DNA of 64,000 nucleotides, from assembly GCA_019694165.1 (NCBI GenBank), contig JAIBCL010000034.1:1-64000 (forward strand), written 5' to 3'. How positions within the stretch are numbered: the first letter of the stretch is position 1; each line of letters starts with the position of its first letter. Positions 26,578 through 34,564 of the stretch are shown here, piece after piece. The translations under genes were made by a program, and so were the position numbers. Source of the stretch: Verrucomicrobiaceae bacterium (lineage in GTDB: Bacteria > Verrucomicrobiota > Verrucomicrobiia > Verrucomicrobiales > Verrucomicrobiaceae). A model generated the notes under the pieces. The model did no database searches and was not told the DNA's origin. It was given only the letters and a program-made list of their open reading frames with translations.

Positions 26578-27782
26578 GGTTGGTGCGCGTTGAGCCATTG
26601 AGAGAGCAATTCGGGCAAAGCGGACTGATCACCCGGCAAACGCTCGATGAAGCTCAAGTCCTGCGCGCGCACCAAACGACGCGCCAAGGCCTCGTTGGCC
26701 GCTTCAGAGGCGTCCATCGGCGTTTTGGCCGCTGATGGCAAGGCAACAACAACATCCCACTCCTGTGGACCAAAGCTGAGGGACCAGTTCATGATCCAGG
26801 AGTAGTGCTGATGAAAGTCCTGCGGTCGCTTCTCGGTGAGTGCGCCGGGAACGGCAATGAGCACGCAATCCGGCTTCATCGTGCGCACGGCCTTCGCGGC
26901 CGTCTCGAGTTCAGCGAGCGTCTTGCCCTCCGTGGGCCATGTTTTCACGGTGATCTGCGCGTTCGGATGTCGCTTCTTCAAAGCGGCCTCGATGTGCTGA
27001 TCGTAAGGCGGCATGGCAAACGCGGTGACCGGCTTGCCTTCACCGAGCCGTTTCAGCGTGTGCGCGAGCGGATTCGGCGGTGGCGGCTCATTGCGCAGCG
27101 ACACGTCTTTGCCCGTGATGGTCTTCGCGATGGTTTCGGCGAAGAGCTTGTGCCCGTCCATGTTGGGATGAATGGCGTCGCTGAGCAGCAGGTTCCATTC
27201 GAGCGGGTCTCTGGCTCGCACGGCCTCGAAGGCCGCGAAACAGTCCGCGAGTCCGAGCGATTCGGCTTTTGCGAGGTCACGAATCGCCTGCGAATACTCG
27301 GCGAGCTTCGCCATGGGCCGCTGCGGCGAGTCCACGATGCTGTTTTGCGTGCCCAGCACGACCTCCGCGCCCGCATCGCGGCAGCGCTGGATGATTTGTC
27401 GCATGTTCGTCACGAAATCGGCCACCGGCATGCGCACGAGGTCGTTCATGCCGAACATGATCGTCACCAGATGCGGCTTGTGCGCCAACACATCGCGCTC
27501 CAGCCGTGCGAGACCGCCTTTGCTCGTGTCGCCGCTGATGCCGGCATTGCGCACGGTGACTTTGGCCTGCGGATGAAGCTTCTTCAGCGCGATCTGCAAC
27601 ATCTCCGGATACGCCCGCACACTGCCACTGTGGTAATACACCCCTGTGATGCTGTCGCCGATGCAGACGATGCGCACGGGTTCTTTGGCTTCAGTGAGGA
27701 GCTGGCGTGTTTTGTCGGGCGTGGCCGACAAAGCAAGCGTTGTCAGGAAAAGCAGACAAACAAGATTGTAGAGCATCTTCAT
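26574..27782 (-). CDS. secreted SGNH/GDSL hydrolase with a second degenerate SGNH-like domain
   Basis: A 402-residue exported esterase. After a signal peptide to about A20, the SGNH blocks are visible: S44 in CIGDSITGVYY, GISGDTSKGGL, MFGMNDLV, and DAIHPNMDGH with the catalytic Asp and His. Residues about 265-400 look like a second, partial SGNH fold (IEAALKKRHPNAQITVKTWPTEG, LIAVPGAL) lacking the Ser and DxxH motifs, perhaps retained as a binding domain. The start at 27782 is set by an ATGA overlap with the upstream gene. It probably deacylates a polysaccharide. Confidence 0.85.
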   Translation of the reverse strand: MKMLYNLVCLLFLTTLALSATPDKTRQLLTEAKEPVRIVCIGDSITGVYYHSGSVRAYPEMLQIALKKLHPQAKVTVRNAGISGDTSKGGLARLERDVLAHKPHLVTIMFGMNDLVRMPVADFVTNMRQIIQRCRDAGAEVVLGTQNSIVDSPQRPMAKLAEYSQAIRDLAKAESLGLADCFAAFEAVRARDPLEWNLLLSDAIHPNMDGHKLFAETIAKTITGKDVSLRNEPPPPNPLAHTLKRLGEGKPVTAFAMPPYDQHIEAALKKRHPNAQITVKTWPTEGKTLAELETAAKAVRTMKPDCVLIAVPGALTEKRPQDFHQHYSWIMNWSLSFGPQEWDVVVALPSAAKTPMDASEAANEALARRLVRAQDLSFIERLPGDQSALPELLSQWLNAHQP

Positions 27783-29608
27783 GGTGACGGAATGACTTTC
27801 TGCATCGCCGACCACAAGAGCGCGGCGGCTTTCCATTGTTCCCAGAGCGGGCCTTTGCAGCCATTCAGCCCGTGGCCGCCGCTGGGGAGTTCGAGGAGTT
27901 CGACCGGGCGCTGGTGCTGACTCATCGCAGCGACGAACTGGCGGCTGTTTTCGATGGGCACGGCTTTGTCGTCGATGGCATGGGCGATGAAGACGGGCGG
28001 CGTGTTGTCGCTGACTTGCAGCTCATTCGAGTAGAGACGCTCGAGGTCGGTCGTGGGATTGTCGCCGAGCAGTTCGTGCTTTGAACCGGTGTGCGTGAAC
28101 TCGCCCATCGTGACGACGGGATAGACGAACCATGCGAAGTCTGGGCGCGAACTTTGCTTCTCGATGGGATCAGTCGCATTCGCGTTGCCTGAGTCGAAGT
28201 GCGTCGTGGAAGTCGATGCGACATGTCCGCCTGCGGAGAAGCCGAGGATGCCGATGCGCTGCGGATCAATCTTCCACTTCGTTGCGTTGGCTCGTGTGAG
28301 GCGGATCGCGCGTTGCGCGTCGAGCAAGGGCACGCCGTGGCGCAGCTTCGGGAGACGGTATTCGAGAATCACGCAGGCGATGCCGTGCTCGTTCAGCCAT
28401 TGCGCAATGGGATAGCCCTCTCGGTCGGTGACGTGGCGGATATAGCCGCCTCCGGGGCAGAGCACGATAGCTGCGCCGTTGGCTTTATCGTCGGGCGGCA
28501 GGAAGACTTCGAGTTCCTTAGTGCTGTCCTCGAAGGTGCCATCGCCGTTCGGTGCTTTGCCGGGCCAGAGTGGCACGCGATGGGTGATCGTCGGCTTGTT
28601 CGTGTCATCGCGCTCGGTGGTGACGCGATAGGTCTTGCCATCGGTGACGACCTGCACGGTCCCGTGAAGACCGGTGACGTAGGTCTTGGTGCCGAGGGCT
28701 TTCAGATCGGGCGTGGAGCGTATGCCTTTCGCGTAGCGCGGAAAAACACTCGCGATGGACACCTCGGGCCGCACGGCTTCCCCGAAGGTTTGCGGGATCG
28801 GATGAATGCCGTGTCCGGGTGCGACGAGGATGTGGCATTTCAGCTTCGACTTGTCCACGAAGGGCATGAGGCTGGCCTCGATGTCCTCGGTCTGGATGTC
28901 GCCTGGCAGCAGGAAGACGATGTCGCCAAACTGAATGCGCAGCGCTAGCGAGTTCGCGTTCACGAGGAAGTGCGAGGGCGTGTCGTTCTTCGGTCGCGTG
29001 GTGATCTTCGGGTCTTTGAAGTAGCTCGCTGGTGGCGCGATGACTTCGATCTTCAAATCAGGATCGAGATTCAAGGTGTCGCCAGCCGTGGCCGCGATGT
29101 GCGCTCCGCGTGCTTTGAACTCCTCCCGCACTCGCGTGTAGTGATCGAGTTCGTCTTTGTTCGTGCCGATGTAGTCGTCGGGATTGTCGCTGTGGAAAGT
29201 GTAGCCACAGTCGAACAGCTTCTTGATCTCGAAGTTCTCCTTCAACCACAGCAAGCCGCCGAAGTGATCGTAGTGCGCGTGGCTGACGAAGACACCGTCA
29301 ATGCTCGTCACGCCTTGCTTCTTCAGCAGCGGTGCCACGACATCGCGCCCCGCATTGAACTTCGCCAGCCAGCCATCAGATGAGAGCTTTTCGGGATGCG
29401 CCGTGCCGGTGTCATAGAGCCATGTCTTACCCGAAGGCGTGCGCATCACGATGGCGAGCCCCGCGCCCCGCTGGATGTCGGGGATATCGAGGACGGTGAA
29501 GGAGAAGGTTTTGTCAGCGCCGATTGCGTGCCCACCGAGGACAAATGAGATGAGGGCTGAGAGGAAGGTTCTATTCCAGGACATGCAGGAACTCAGAAGT
29601 CGCTTCAC
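27779..29608 (-). CDS. fusion of a metallo-beta-lactamase fold hydrolase and an alpha/beta hydrolase
   Basis: This 609-residue protein joins two enzymes. Residues 35-340 are a metallo-beta-lactamase fold with SHAHYDHFGG (H110, H112, D114, H115), resembling the ComEC-type hydrolase domain. Residues 345-609 are an esterase/acetyl-xylan-esterase-like alpha/beta hydrolase: VLCPGGGYIRHV, nucleophile elbow GFSAGGHVAS, acid in HAIDDKAVP and His in GGHGL. The start is GTG at 29608 or ATG at 29584; both give an export-type N-terminus and neither has a strong ribosome site. It is the first gene of the eight-gene minus-strand cluster, so a promoter should lie in the IS remnant region above 29608. Confidence 0.8.
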   Translation of the reverse strand: MKRLLSSCMSWNRTFLSALISFVLGGHAIGADKTFSFTVLDIPDIQRGAGLAIVMRTPSGKTWLYDTGTAHPEKLSSDGWLAKFNAGRDVVAPLLKKQGVTSIDGVFVSHAHYDHFGGLLWLKENFEIKKLFDCGYTFHSDNPDDYIGTNKDELDHYTRVREEFKARGAHIAATAGDTLNLDPDLKIEVIAPPASYFKDPKITTRPKNDTPSHFLVNANSLALRIQFGDIVFLLPGDIQTEDIEASLMPFVDKSKLKCHILVAPGHGIHPIPQTFGEAVRPEVSIASVFPRYAKGIRSTPDLKALGTKTYVTGLHGTVQVVTDGKTYRVTTERDDTNKPTITHRVPLWPGKAPNGDGTFEDSTKELEVFLPPDDKANGAAIVLCPGGGYIRHVTDREGYPIAQWLNEHGIACVILEYRLPKLRHGVPLLDAQRAIRLTRANATKWKIDPQRIGILGFSAGGHVASTSTTHFDSGNANATDPIEKQSSRPDFAWFVYPVVTMGEFTHTGSKHELLGDNPTTDLERLYSNELQVSDNTPPVFIAHAIDDKAVPIENSRQFVAAMSQHQRPVELLELPSGGHGLNGCKGPLWEQWKAAALLWSAMQKVIPSP

Positions 29609-29679
29609 GTTCAGGATTTGTTTCGACGGATCATGGCGAACCGCGCGGAAGGATCACCTTCGCAGCAGTCGTTTGGTGC

Positions 29680-30420
29680 CGCATGAAGCCGACCCTCATC
29701 TACACCATCGCCGGAGTTGAGCGCCTGTCCCGCGAGAGAATCGGCAGGTTTTGGAGAGGTGAGTCGCTCGATCGTGAGGCCGATGAAGGCGATGCAAACG
29801 AGGGTTTCGCGATGGCGGGGATTCTTCTCGTGGTTGCGCATGAGGCGGCGTTGCTTGACCAGCCAGCCCAAGCTGCGCTCGTTGACTCGGCGGCGTGGCA
29901 GCACCGCGAAGCCTTTCTGGTCCTCGAGCATTTTGACGACGCTCAAGGCAAAGCTCGCTGCGTGTCCGAACTGCTGCCCCATGCTCTGCACTAAAGTTTC
30001 AAACTTTCCGGCGTAGTCGCCGTCGGCAACGTCTCATCAGCAGGACCGGCAAACTGTGGCAGGACGGGCACAGCAGCATCTTCGTGTCGTCACAATCCTG
30101 CACGTCGTCTGACGTGACCACCACACGCCCGGGAGAAAGCCGCCCGGGTTGGTGACTGTATGGGTGCCTGCGGCCATTGAACTTTTTGCCCGCGTCGTGG
30201 CCGCAGCCCGGAGTCGGCAGCGGTCCGCCTTTGACCGTTTGGCTGTCGATGGCTGCGGTGTCGGGCACGGCGTCCTTTTCAGCATCAAGAGCATCTTGGT
30301 TCGCGGCGCTCTGTCGAGCATCGTGAGATCCCATTCCGCAATGCTCAGTTCGGAGTCGCAACGGGCGGGTTCGCAAGGAGTGGTGGGCGTTCTGCTTCTT
30401 ATCCAAGCACGCCTCAGTGG
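29680..30420 (-). pseudogene. remnant of an IS5-family transposase gene
   Basis: Pieces in different frames spell an IS5-type DDE transposase. The central part, at about 30130-30260, reads AAIDSQTVKGG, PLPTPGCGHDAGKKFNGR and then VVVTSDDVQDCDD, matching the conserved IDSQSVK, YDAGKKVKGRK and VTPASVQD motifs. The C-terminal part at about 29690-29920 reads FAVLPRRRVNERSLGWLVKQRRL, RNHEKNP and then IAFIGLTIERL. The two parts lie in different frames, so the gene is inactive. It fills the gap between the eight-gene cluster and the lipoprotein gene. Confidence 0.8.
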
Positions 30421-31400
30421 CTGCAACTGTTTGTCGGACAGGCTCTCAGGCCCTCCAGCCAGCGGATGAGAATGTCCCGCATGTGGCGGCGGTCGGTGGC
30501 GTTGTCACTGGCGGTGACGGTGTTATGCGGGCCTTTGAGGTGGCGGCGTGCGTCAGTGTATGCCACCTGCCACCAATCCTCCTGCCTGCACGGACGATCC
30601 GCGGGCACCATGACGACCGGTTTGAATTTTTCCCCCATGCCGCGGCGGACCAGCTCCTGATGCAGCCACTCAAACTTCTCGAACATCGCGATCCAGTCTT
30701 CGCGGTAGTGAAAACCGATGAGCCGCTTCGATGGATCGCGCTTCATGGCGGCAAAGGTCTTTTCCACCATCTCATCCGGCAGCGCCATCAGCCGCTTCGA
30801 GTCCACACTCTGGATCTCGAGCAGCGTGTTGGCAGGGCTGGTCGGGAACGGCATCGCGGGCTGGCAAAGGATCGCAGCGCGCACATCGGCGCGGCCAAGC
30901 AGCGCGAGCGGGAAGCCGCCGGAGAGGCAGTTCCCCATCACCACCACCCGCCTGCCGCCATGCTGGCGGCTGATCCACGCGACCATCGCCGCTACGTCGT
31001 CGAGCACTGGGCCGGAACTGTGAGGGTCGGTCAGGTGCCAGCGTGAATCCTTCTTGAGGCCCTTGAGCGCCGCGAACATGTCATCGTCGCCGTACTTGCC
31101 GAACAAGGCCGGCGCATAGGCCGTCCAGCCATTGCGCTCCAGCTCGAGACAGAAATCCAGCGGCGCAGCGCTCAGGCCGTTCAGCTCATGCAGCACGAGA
31201 ATGGGAGGGCCGCGGTGGCTTTTGGTGCGATATACCGGATAGTCGTAACCCGACCGCCCCTTGAAGTGCCTCTCATCGAAGCGACTCGCACACGGCAGGT
31301 CGATGGAAGTCCGGCAGCACGGATGCGTGGAGCAGCTTGCGACGGCGAGCACTGCTGCAAGCCCAAGCAGACGGCATGAATCGAGGAGCGTTGTTTTCAT
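30414..31400 (-). CDS. dienelactone-hydrolase-like lipoprotein
   Basis: A 328-residue predicted lipoprotein with lipobox AVASC (C23). The hydrolase domain has ILVLHELNGLS, the nucleophile turn GNCLSGG in which Cys replaces the usual Ser as in dienelactone hydrolases, DVRAAILCQPAMPF, and a possible catalytic His in KGPHNTV. It would act in the periplasm on lactones or esters. The very end (ACPTNSCSH) overlaps the IS5 remnant, so the native C-terminus may have been replaced. Confidence 0.75.
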   Translation of the reverse strand: MKTTLLDSCRLLGLAAVLAVASCSTHPCCRTSIDLPCASRFDERHFKGRSGYDYPVYRTKSHRGPPILVLHELNGLSAAPLDFCLELERNGWTAYAPALFGKYGDDDMFAALKGLKKDSRWHLTDPHSSGPVLDDVAAMVAWISRQHGGRRVVVMGNCLSGGFPLALLGRADVRAAILCQPAMPFPTSPANTLLEIQSVDSKRLMALPDEMVEKTFAAMKRDPSKRLIGFHYREDWIAMFEKFEWLHQELVRRGMGEKFKPVVMVPADRPCRQEDWWQVAYTDARRHLKGPHNTVTASDNATDRRHMRDILIRWLEGLRACPTNSCSH

Positions 31401-31533
31401 CCGCGCGAGAATACTGGAAACATGGCTTGAGGGACAAGCGTGGAATTTGTTGTTGTGAGGTGCAATCGAGCTTGCCAGACCGGCGGCGAGTTGCTGAAAT
31501 CAACTCCAGCCACCACAAAAACTCCCGCACCCC

Positions 31534-33795
31534 ATGCCAAACGGTGAAGATCCATCCGCCCCTCCCGCCGAATCAAAGAAGTCTGAAGCCATGTCGGAGA
31601 AGGATGTCTTTGATGAAATGGTGGAGAACTTTCGCAACCACCTGAGCACCACGTCCAAACTGGTGAACGGATTGCTTATCGCGTTGTTCGCCCTCTGGCT
31701 GCTTCCTATCGAGGACGACGTGGCCGAACAGTTTCTCGTTTGCAAGAAGGTTGGGGTGGAAGCGAACGACTATCGTGAGGCTGTGACGAGTTTTCAGGCC
31801 CAGGCAGACGAGCTGGTGCGCCGGGCACAAACCAATGGTGCGGACCTGGTTGAAGTCCGGGAGAGATTTGATCGATTGCTCGAAGAGAAGTGGCCCAAAA
31901 TCTCAGCCAGGGCGACCATGCTTGTGGGGATGTTGGATGACGCGGAGCGATACTTTACTTCAGAAAGCAAGAAGAAGGAGGAGGGTGAGAAGGATGACCG
32001 GTATTCTTTCCTGGCTGAAGAGTTTGGCAAAGCTTCCAGCAAAATCCGGGATCAGAGCCACGATCGAAGAATTCGAGGTGCCTTGCTCAGTTCGCTCAAT
32101 GTCGATGACCGTCTGGCCATCGCCAACATCCAGCAGATCCAGCAGACAGCGCTCACCAGCCAGTTTGACCCTCAGTTCAAGGCGATCGCTTCGGTGATGA
32201 CTGAGGCCCAGAATAGCAAGGTGAAATTCAAGCTCCCATTGATCGAGCAAAACGTTCCGATCCGAAAGGCCATCACTATCTGGTCGCTCTGCATGGCTCT
32301 CACACTCCTCCTGGTCATCGCGGCCCGCTTCAGGGCGGAACACGAATTTGATGCCATTCGGAACAGTGGATGGGCGGGCACTGCAAAGGCGGGTGCGCTT
32401 GATTCCGCGATCGGCGAACTGCCGTGGTGGATGGATACGTTTTGGGTCAGGAACAAGCCCGGCGATGCCGGAGTTCGGAAGAAGGATGGGCGGGGGTGGC
32501 GAACTTTGATCGTAGCCGTTTTGGTGTTTTTTGCGATCCTCCGTCTGGCATGGCTTGAGCACGCGCGCTTTTATCTCCAGGTGTTGGGAGACAGCAGCGG
32601 TTGGTGGTTGAATTATTCCTGCATGATGTTTCTCGGTTGGTCGCTCGGACTTGCCGCTCTGTTCGCCACGACTTCGACACGGTTCAGTCAAAGCGGCTTG
32701 GTTGACGCAGACGCTCGCAACGCCAGGGTGGGCAAAGCAGTGAGAACCTCAATTACTACACGCCAATTCTTGTTCCAGGGATTCGGTTTGGCTGGAGGTT
32801 TTGTTCTTGCCGGGTTAATCGACTGTTCATTGAGTCGAAAGGCCAAACTCGTAGCGACGGTAAATTCTGGTGGGCGTGGGGGCAGTGATCGGACACTTCC
32901 GCGATTCGTCATTCTCCGGCGAAGGCGGGTTCAAGTGAAAGCGGACAAACTCGACAAATCGGGAGGCTTTATCGAGAGGAATGGAGTTTCCAACCGTCGC
33001 AGTGAAGTGAAGCATTTCGCATTGCCTGCTACAGCATACCAAGCCTGCAAGCTTCCCGAAAAGCTGCCAGCAACGCAAAGACCAAAAGATGTCCCGGCTG
33101 GAACTTATGTGTTGCGACCACGGTTGCCCGGCAGAGGGAAGGAAGGTGCCTTAAAGAAGTGTGACGGCACGATAAATCCTGCCGAACTCATCAAGGAGGT
33201 GACTTCCAGTTCTCCATCCAGGATTACCCGTGGTAGCCGGCTTAACCTCAAAACGGCTGCGATTATCTGCGAATATCAAGCCGCGACTCTGTTGAGGTCC
33301 GCAGGTTTGTTGGGCCAGAGCAAGGATGCCTCAAAAGAGCAATCGGAAGAAGTGCAGAATAGCCACGAGAAAACGAATGACACTACGAAGGCGCTCCAAT
33401 GGATGCTGTGCGCGGTTCGACACGACACCCTCCTCAAGCAGAATGGTGATCCGCAAGACTGGGTACCAAGCTTCAGGGCTTTTGATCTTGCTGCGATTCT
33501 TGCCGCTTCCGTGAAAGGCGAGGATGGAATAAAGCCCCTCGTCTGGTTGGCGGAACAACTGCATTCAGTCGCCAGCCGCGGCAGATCTGTCATGCAGCGG
33601 ACGGTGAAGAATACAGATCAAAAAGGACCAAAGAAGGGCCAAGCGCACGAACGTCTTGTGGTGGCCTGGGCGAAACAACGGATCGCAAAATGGACGGTCG
33701 AAAAGAACGGAAAGCGGGAGCCGAATCAAACCTGGATCGACGCTTGCAAGGACGGCAAGAAATTGCAAAACTGGAAGTGCCCCCTGAACACATGA
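31534..33795 (+). CDS. large multi-pass membrane protein of unknown function
   Basis: A 753-residue protein that I do not recognise. A charged N-terminus is followed by predicted membrane segments at about 43-59, 246-264, 323-340, 360-380 and 411-430. Between the first two lies a charged, helical region of about 185 residues, and after the last a 320-residue soluble domain rich in Lys and Arg and without familiar motifs (a region around TYVLRPRLPGRGKEG, a helical part with WMLCAVRHD, and a C-terminal WKCPLN). Its base composition looks less GC-rich than its neighbours by eye. The gene stands alone between an IS remnant and a tRNA-like sequence, and its stop codon overlaps the start of that tRNA-like sequence. 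These are signs of acquired DNA. Confidence 0.7.
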   Translation: MPNGEDPSAPPAESKKSEAMSEKDVFDEMVENFRNHLSTTSKLVNGLLIALFALWLLPIEDDVAEQFLVCKKVGVEANDYREAVTSFQAQADELVRRAQTNGADLVEVRERFDRLLEEKWPKISARATMLVGMLDDAERYFTSESKKKEEGEKDDRYSFLAEEFGKASSKIRDQSHDRRIRGALLSSLNVDDRLAIANIQQIQQTALTSQFDPQFKAIASVMTEAQNSKVKFKLPLIEQNVPIRKAITIWSLCMALTLLLVIAARFRAEHEFDAIRNSGWAGTAKAGALDSAIGELPWWMDTFWVRNKPGDAGVRKKDGRGWRTLIVAVLVFFAILRLAWLEHARFYLQVLGDSSGWWLNYSCMMFLGWSLGLAALFATTSTRFSQSGLVDADARNARVGKAVRTSITTRQFLFQGFGLAGGFVLAGLIDCSLSRKAKLVATVNSGGRGGSDRTLPRFVILRRRRVQVKADKLDKSGGFIERNGVSNRRSEVKHFALPATAYQACKLPEKLPATQRPKDVPAGTYVLRPRLPGRGKEGALKKCDGTINPAELIKEVTSSSPSRITRGSRLNLKTAAIICEYQAATLLRSAGLLGQSKDASKEQSEEVQNSHEKTNDTTKALQWMLCAVRHDTLLKQNGDPQDWVPSFRAFDLAAILAASVKGEDGIKPLVWLAEQLHSVASRGRSVMQRTVKNTDQKGPKKGQAHERLVVAWAKQRIAKWTVEKNGKREPNQTWIDACKDGKKLQNWKCPLNT

Positions 33796-33868
33796 CTCGG
33801 AGTCTTCTAATGTAAGATAATCTGCTTCGGCAGTTCAATAGCGGTTCGAATCCGCTCTCCAGTCACCA
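33794..33868 (+). tRNA. tRNA-like sequence, probably a degenerate tRNA or integration-site copy
   Basis: The 3' part is very tRNA-like: T-stem AGCGG, loop TTCGAAT and CCGCT (33840-33856), then CTCCAGTC, A and CCA. The 5' bases GACTCGGAG can pair with CTCCAGTC with one bulged C. TCTT-loop-AAGA could be a D-arm but lacks the GG pair. The anticodon region (CTGC TTCG GCAG) is a tetraloop hairpin rather than a 7-base anticodon loop, and one extra base sits between T-stem and acceptor. It is therefore unlikely to be a working tRNA. Confidence 0.45.
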
Positions 33869-34564
33869 TCATTCAGGTCTCGCCTTGCCCGAACCCGGTA
33901 GCGCGGAGAAGAAAAAGTAGCGCGGGGAGCGGATGAGGTCGCCCACTTCGCGGAGGGCGGCGGCAGAGAGGATGGAGTCGAGCCGCTCGCGGGCTTCATC
34001 GTGACGGTTGAGACGCTCGTCGAGGAATCGGCGGAGGCGCAGGTTCGCATTCCGCTCGACGGCGAGCGTGCCGATGTTCAGCAGCAGCACGATGGCGCAG
34101 GCGGCGGCGGCCACGAAGAGTCTGACGCGAATGGACGGCATGATTTTGAGAAATTTCAGCGCGACGACGAGGATGAGCACGAGCGTGGGGACGTAGCGGG
34201 TCATCGTGATGCAGGAGCGCCGCCACTTCAGCTCGGCAAGCGCGTCACCGGTCTGCAGGGCGTGCGCCGCCTCGTGCAGGGCCACGGCCCACGCGGCCAG
34301 ATGGTGGCCATCTTTGAACTCGCGCCGCAGAAAGAGCCGACGCCGCGCAGGATCGAAGTAGTCGGTGACCACGCCGTTGTGTTCGATGATCTGCACATCG
34401 GTCACGCCGGCATCCTCCAGAAACGCCAGCGCGATCTCCGCACCCGTGAATGGCAGCGGTGCCTGCCACCGGCCGCCGCGCGCCACGGCCTCTTCGTAGC
34501 GCTGGAGAGACCAGTGGCTCGCGCCGAAGGCCAGCAGGACCACGATGATGAGAATGCCGAGCAT
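33869..34564 (-). CDS. membrane zinc metallopeptidase (YugP/PF04298-like)
   Basis: A 231-residue inner-membrane protein. An N-terminal membrane helix is followed by a cytosolic or periplasmic domain with the zinc motif H97-E98-x2-H101 in WAVALHEAAHALQ, then two further membrane helices (VPTLVLILVVALKFLKI and LFVAAAACAIVLLLNIGTLAV), and a C-terminal region with ERNANLRLRRFLDE that supplies the third zinc ligand. Motif order and length fit the neutral zinc metallopeptidase family PF04298. The physiological substrate is unknown. Its stop codon directly abuts the tRNA-like CCA end. Confidence 0.85.
   Translation of the reverse strand: MLGILIIVVLLAFGASHWSLQRYEEAVARGGRWQAPLPFTGAEIALAFLEDAGVTDVQIIEHNGVVTDYFDPARRRLFLRREFKDGHHLAAWAVALHEAAHALQTGDALAELKWRRSCITMTRYVPTLVLILVVALKFLKIMPSIRVRLFVAAAACAIVLLLNIGTLAVERNANLRLRRFLDERLNRHDEARERLDSILSAAALREVGDLIRSPRYFFFSALPGSGKARPE

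Follow-up and report, generated by a model that had tools for sequence, protein, structure and literature searches.

What kind of gene is the long open reading frame (ORF) at 31534–33795 on the plus strand, how did it come to lie among genes so different from it in composition, and how much foreign DNA surrounds it? These questions are considered here within the window, i.e., the whole analysed stretch of 64,000 nucleotides of Verrucomicrobiaceae DNA. The original prediction saw in this ORF an undescribed, probably acquired membrane protein.

An open frame of alien composition

The ORF, of 753 codons, is a genuine gene with a multi-pass membrane product. The chance of so many consecutive stop-free codons, computed at the ORF's own base composition, is about 3e-15, and over 31534–33795 it is the sole open frame of the plus strand, the remaining two containing more than 25 stops each. 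At residues ~390–560 (about 32590–33260) the codon structure is weak, the three codon positions showing a flat or inverted GC profile, with the frame still open; the gene may be of mosaic origin or have recombined recently. The same feature would also fit a frame of which only part is real: two shorter genes, or one gene and a non-coding stretch, that happen to be joined, the coding structure being lost in this part. Such a composite is improbable given the contrast between the many stops of the other two plus frames and their absence from all 753 codons of this one, and flat codon statistics are in any case frequent in foreign genes.

Relative to 29 other window genes, the ORF is lower in GC (0.543 vs. 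0.621, z −4.4), in GC3 (0.62 vs. 0.78, z −4.5), and in codon adaptation (0.483 vs. 0.685, z −4.5), and in all three it lies below every one of the 29, so that a deviation first judged by eye is now borne out by statistics. A maximal-segment scan placed the most AT-rich segment of the window, taken as the compositional limits of the acquired piece, at 31376–33875. The GC content of 31401–33868 is 0.542, the minimum among other stretches of equal length in the window being 0.576, and the right limit at 33875 falls within 7 bases of the tRNA-like end described below. With these limits the acquired piece comprises only the orphan gene and the tRNA-like end. The only gene within 31376–33875 has no match in Pfam, NCBIfam, or PHROGs, so no integrase is recognised there; neither a firm attachment-site pair nor a donor was found for the piece.

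On the left, an IS5 remnant together with a lipoprotein gene had been proposed as the border of the segment. The IS5-family remnant is real: it occupies ~29611–30450, is frame-broken (NF033580, E 7e-6), and has near-matching inverted ends (12/13) at 29718 and 30436; the placing of the border at these two elements is unsupported by composition. The alpha/beta-hydrolase gene at 30414–31400 (DLH, Pfam E 1e-7) has a GC content of 63%, as the chromosome has, and therefore lies outside the acquired piece. Its ORF terminates in sequence beside the inverted-repeat end of the IS5 remnant, which suggests that the right end of the remnant cut the 3′ end of the hydrolase gene. This gene, too, is rare in relatives, and judged by its composition it belongs to an event separate from that of the orphan gene. 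The nearest annotated genes are metabolic (a sulfatase, SulP, an SSF symporter, and hydrolases), with nothing recognisable as a defence, phage, or integrase gene. It is also worth mentioning that at 27779–29608 a single, unusual-looking ORF fuses a metallo-beta-lactamase-fold (ComEC-like) domain with an esterase (BD-FAE/PaeX-like) domain.

Searches for homologues

The orphan protein is absent from about 1,000 other genomes, composed of overlapping sets of 190 relatives, including the sole other genome of the genus, and of 387 genomes of the phylum and 384 of the class, both drawn evenly. At full length it gave nothing significant in Pfam, NCBIfam, or the PDB sequences and no match in PHROGs, where its C-terminal fragment obtained one match at E 0.42. 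None of the 5027 PADLOC-DB models of defence proteins matched at E <= 10, and there was no match in 50,697 phage records or 72,556 plasmid records. GTDB contigs and IMG/VR were scanned with seeds, and these scans, which demand near-exact matches of 8 residues and have little power for distant relatives, likewise returned no relative. The profile searches (Pfam, NCBIfam, PHROGs, and PADLOC) thus agree with the initial statement that the protein has no recognised domain.

The adjacent Zn-peptidase gene (PF04298, 33869–34564) served as a control: the same tool recovered it from 18 of 19 relatives at identities as low as 24–31%, which makes the empty result for the orphan meaningful for homologues above that level. 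In the other genome of the genus the Zn-peptidase is 63% identical, and the orphan ORF is missing. It is also absent from eight relatives in which the neighbourhood of the Zn-peptidase was read over 15–16 kb; the gene order in these eight is loose, which leaves the exact empty site undefinable. Low GC, deviant codon use, the lack of a match to any known family, and absence from relatives, the other genome of the genus included, uphold the original prediction of an acquired and undescribed gene. The gene was probably acquired horizontally, and its description as an acquired orphan membrane protein, free of any claim about its role, can be made with high confidence.

A native origin has nevertheless to be weighed. 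Divergence is fast among membrane proteins that have long loops, the type to which the orphan belongs; an old resident gene, with homologues past detection and AT-rich because it is poorly expressed, would also agree with the lack of an integrase and of a clear left boundary repeat. We consider this unlikely, since GC and codon use lie 4.4–4.5 standard deviations from those of the neighbours, within limits that coincide with the gene and its tRNA-like end, and since the other genome of the genus lacks the gene and yet keeps the adjacent Zn-peptidase.

Several weak resemblances were followed up and rejected. Those sub-threshold hits from the phylum and class genomes that were opened or translated proved to be fortuitous, lying in unrelated genes or in a frame opposite a gene (L003, L005 (MgtE transporter), L013, L014 (tetratricopeptide-like protein), and L018 (coiled-coil protein); in L020 and L045, a frame opposite a peptidase gene). 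The best Pfam match was GrpE (PF01025), to residues 78–225, with E 0.0059 when the loop alone was the query; the score was 6.9 bits for the full protein and 16.7 bits for the loop alone, against a gathering cut-off of 25.8. Membership in this family was rejected, and the match is attributed to compositional chance involving charged, coiled-coil-like helices. The N-terminal pair of transmembrane (TM) helices was also considered as a TM domain that precedes pentapeptide repeats, and this idea was abandoned as the pair is missing from the long PF00805 proteins of relatives; an invented consensus probe for such a domain, uninformative by itself, found no match.

The tRNA-like 3′ end

The tRNA-like end noticed at first sight is present and was extended to a degenerate sequence of 75 nt (33794–33868, plus strand), which shares two bases with the stop codon TGA of the ORF (33793–33795) and abuts with its 3′ limit the stop codon of the Zn-peptidase gene. 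Its acceptor stem of 8 bp with one bulge (GACT-C-GGAG / CTCCAGTC) is followed by a D-like hairpin, by a CTGC-UUCG-GCAG hairpin at the anticodon position, and by a perfect T-arm, AGCGG-TTCGAAT-CCGCT, ending in ACCA. The sequence thus folds mostly as a cloverleaf, at −21.5 kcal/mol (z −2.8). In place of the 7-nt anticodon loop of a functional tRNA there is the 4-nt UUCG loop, the score with the Rfam tRNA model is 20.6 bits, under the cut-off of 29, and ARAGORN called no tRNA at 33794–33868.

On the two strands together, the window has only one 5-bp T-arm that shows this loop pattern and precedes CCA. With up to 3 mismatches allowed, the 26-nt 3′ end has no second copy in its own assembly, which is 96% complete, so that an intact partner may lie in a gap, and no copy in 23 relatives or among 386 other genomes sampled from the phylum (overlapping sets); the tRNA-like sequence is therefore either decayed or foreign. 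It is consistent with, and does not prove, the remnant of an attachment site. A weak candidate for the left site, CTCCAGCCACCA (31504–31515, plus strand), matches the tail CTCCAGTCACCA (33857–33868) at 11 of 12 positions. Such sites number 3 on the plus strand of the 64 kb, the tail itself counted, and the tail is matched equally well or better by 18 of the window's 795 chunks, so this partner is suggestive only.

Two more specific identities for the structure were set aside. An 8-bp acceptor and a 5-bp T-arm fit tRNA-Sec by counting, and this assignment was dropped when no intact partner was found; an integron cassette was rejected as no GTTRRRY core was seen by eye beside the structure. The literature offered nothing specific on integration at tRNA-Sec or on orphan membrane proteins in Verrucomicrobia. 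The 18-nt core of the T-arm occurs in three viral contigs, all of which carry dense tRNA arrays. Separately, another contig of the same genome (C61, 2960–8313) bears a cluster of eight tRNA genes spanning about 5 kb; the majority score low, several have unusual GGTGCGA T-arms, and the array is of the phage or mobile-element kind.

Could the gene be the last remnant of a decayed phage or conjugative element, as a structural or accessory component such as the membrane part of a transfer or lysis apparatus? Alien composition combined with a tRNA-like end would suit such an origin, as would other probable mobile material in the genome, of which the degenerate tRNA array is an example. This origin is rather unlikely in the face of the empty searches of PHROGs, phage and plasmid records, and IMG/VR seeds, and of a gene that is open and undecayed with no other part of an element remaining beside it. 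A related setting, with defence genes as the cargo, was also weighed: positions adjacent to tRNA genes commonly harbour defence cargo, and an acquired single membrane-protein gene beside a tRNA-like sequence might encode a solo membrane-acting anti-phage or anti-plasmid protein of the abortive-infection type that a mobile element has left at such an attachment site. We hold this to be quite unlikely: PADLOC gave no match, the nearest annotated genes are metabolic, no nuclease, NTPase, or nucleotide-sensing domain was found, and there are no homologues whose neighbours could show an association with defence. The preferred reading is that of an acquired orphan membrane protein.

Protein layout and comparison with known systems

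Membrane helices were predicted from Kyte–Doolittle hydropathy peaks, and five peaks were found, the last two weaker, in line with the five helices initially proposed. TM1 is predicted at residues 41–59 (31654–31710, peak 1.85), TM2 at 246–264 (32269–32325, 2.38), TM3 at 324–342 (32503–32559, 2.21), and the weaker TM4 and TM5 at 362–380 (32617–32673, 1.46) and 412–430 (32767–32823, 1.56), all on the plus strand like the regions between and after them. The long charged N-terminal loop and the basic C-terminal domain of the original prediction were both recovered. The former (residues 60–245, 31711–32268) contains 30 K/R and 33 D/E and is probably a helical domain, as judged by its composition and by a low-confidence AF2 model in which it is helical throughout; the latter (residues 431–753, 32824–33792) has no fold assigned and carries a net charge of about +26 over residues 440–753. 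Run without homologues, AlphaFold reached a pLDDT of 41 both for the whole protein and for residues 431–753, and its models, being uninformative, were not taken into a fold search.

An N-inside topology with five helices would place the K/R-rich residues 266–323 and 381–411 inside, in agreement with the positive-inside rule, and the very basic C-terminal region outside, against the same rule. Either one of the weak helices is unreal or the topology is wrong; one of helices 4 and 5 may not cross the membrane.

As to function, nothing was found in favour of any of the three roles first suggested (signalling, surface, or defence), and no output domain, defence gene, or mobile gene speaks for a specific role. 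The data establish the open frame, its composition, its hydropathy, and its absence elsewhere; horizontal entry, topology, sensing, and the action of the C-terminus are deduced. The likeliest role, read from layout only, is that of a membrane-anchored sensor or effector, and we put it forward tentatively, rating role and acquired origin together as somewhat short of an even chance. According to this proposal, a piece of ~2.4 kb consisting of the gene and its tRNA-like 3′ end would have entered one lineage of a large-genome family by horizontal transfer. Its product would lie in the inner membrane, with a short tail at the N-terminus and TM1 leading to a charged helical domain of ~185 residues on the far side, and then to a TM bundle and a basic C-terminal region of ~320 residues. 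The helical loop domain could respond to a condition of the envelope or membrane and relay the change, by way of the TM bundle, to the basic region at the C-terminus; a possible ligand of this region is an acidic partner, e.g., nucleic acid or phospholipid. That the gene represents a new membrane effector or sensor family moving as a one-gene unit, with the fused tRNA-like end acting as a recombination site or an mRNA element, is very improbable. If it proved to be the first representative of a membrane-protein family, the known repertoire of single-gene cargo at tRNA sites would be widened; at present it is a single, well-documented orphan, of use as a marker in future metagenome data, and it recalls that such long orphans reside in large-genome environmental bacteria.

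Among known systems, GrpE (PF01025) resembles the orphan only in the weak match of its loop and, unlike it, is no membrane protein family. Multi-pass membrane sensors or effectors with an extracytoplasmic helical domain, e.g., those of the 4HB type, are similar by layout only, in the succession of TM1, a long helical loop, TM2, further TM helices, and a soluble C-terminus; in contrast to them, the orphan contains no HAMP, kinase, GGDEF, methyl-accepting, or other recognised output domain. From the orphan genes of acquired pieces at tRNA sites it differs in its length of 753 aa, large for an orphan, in the absence of an integrase, and in the degenerate state of its tRNA-like sequence, of which the assembly contains no intact partner. 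It shares with them the restriction to a single lineage, the lack of homologues, the low GC, and the tRNA-derived neighbour, and on present evidence it belongs to these already known acquired orphan genes near tRNA-derived sequences rather than to a new kind of system.
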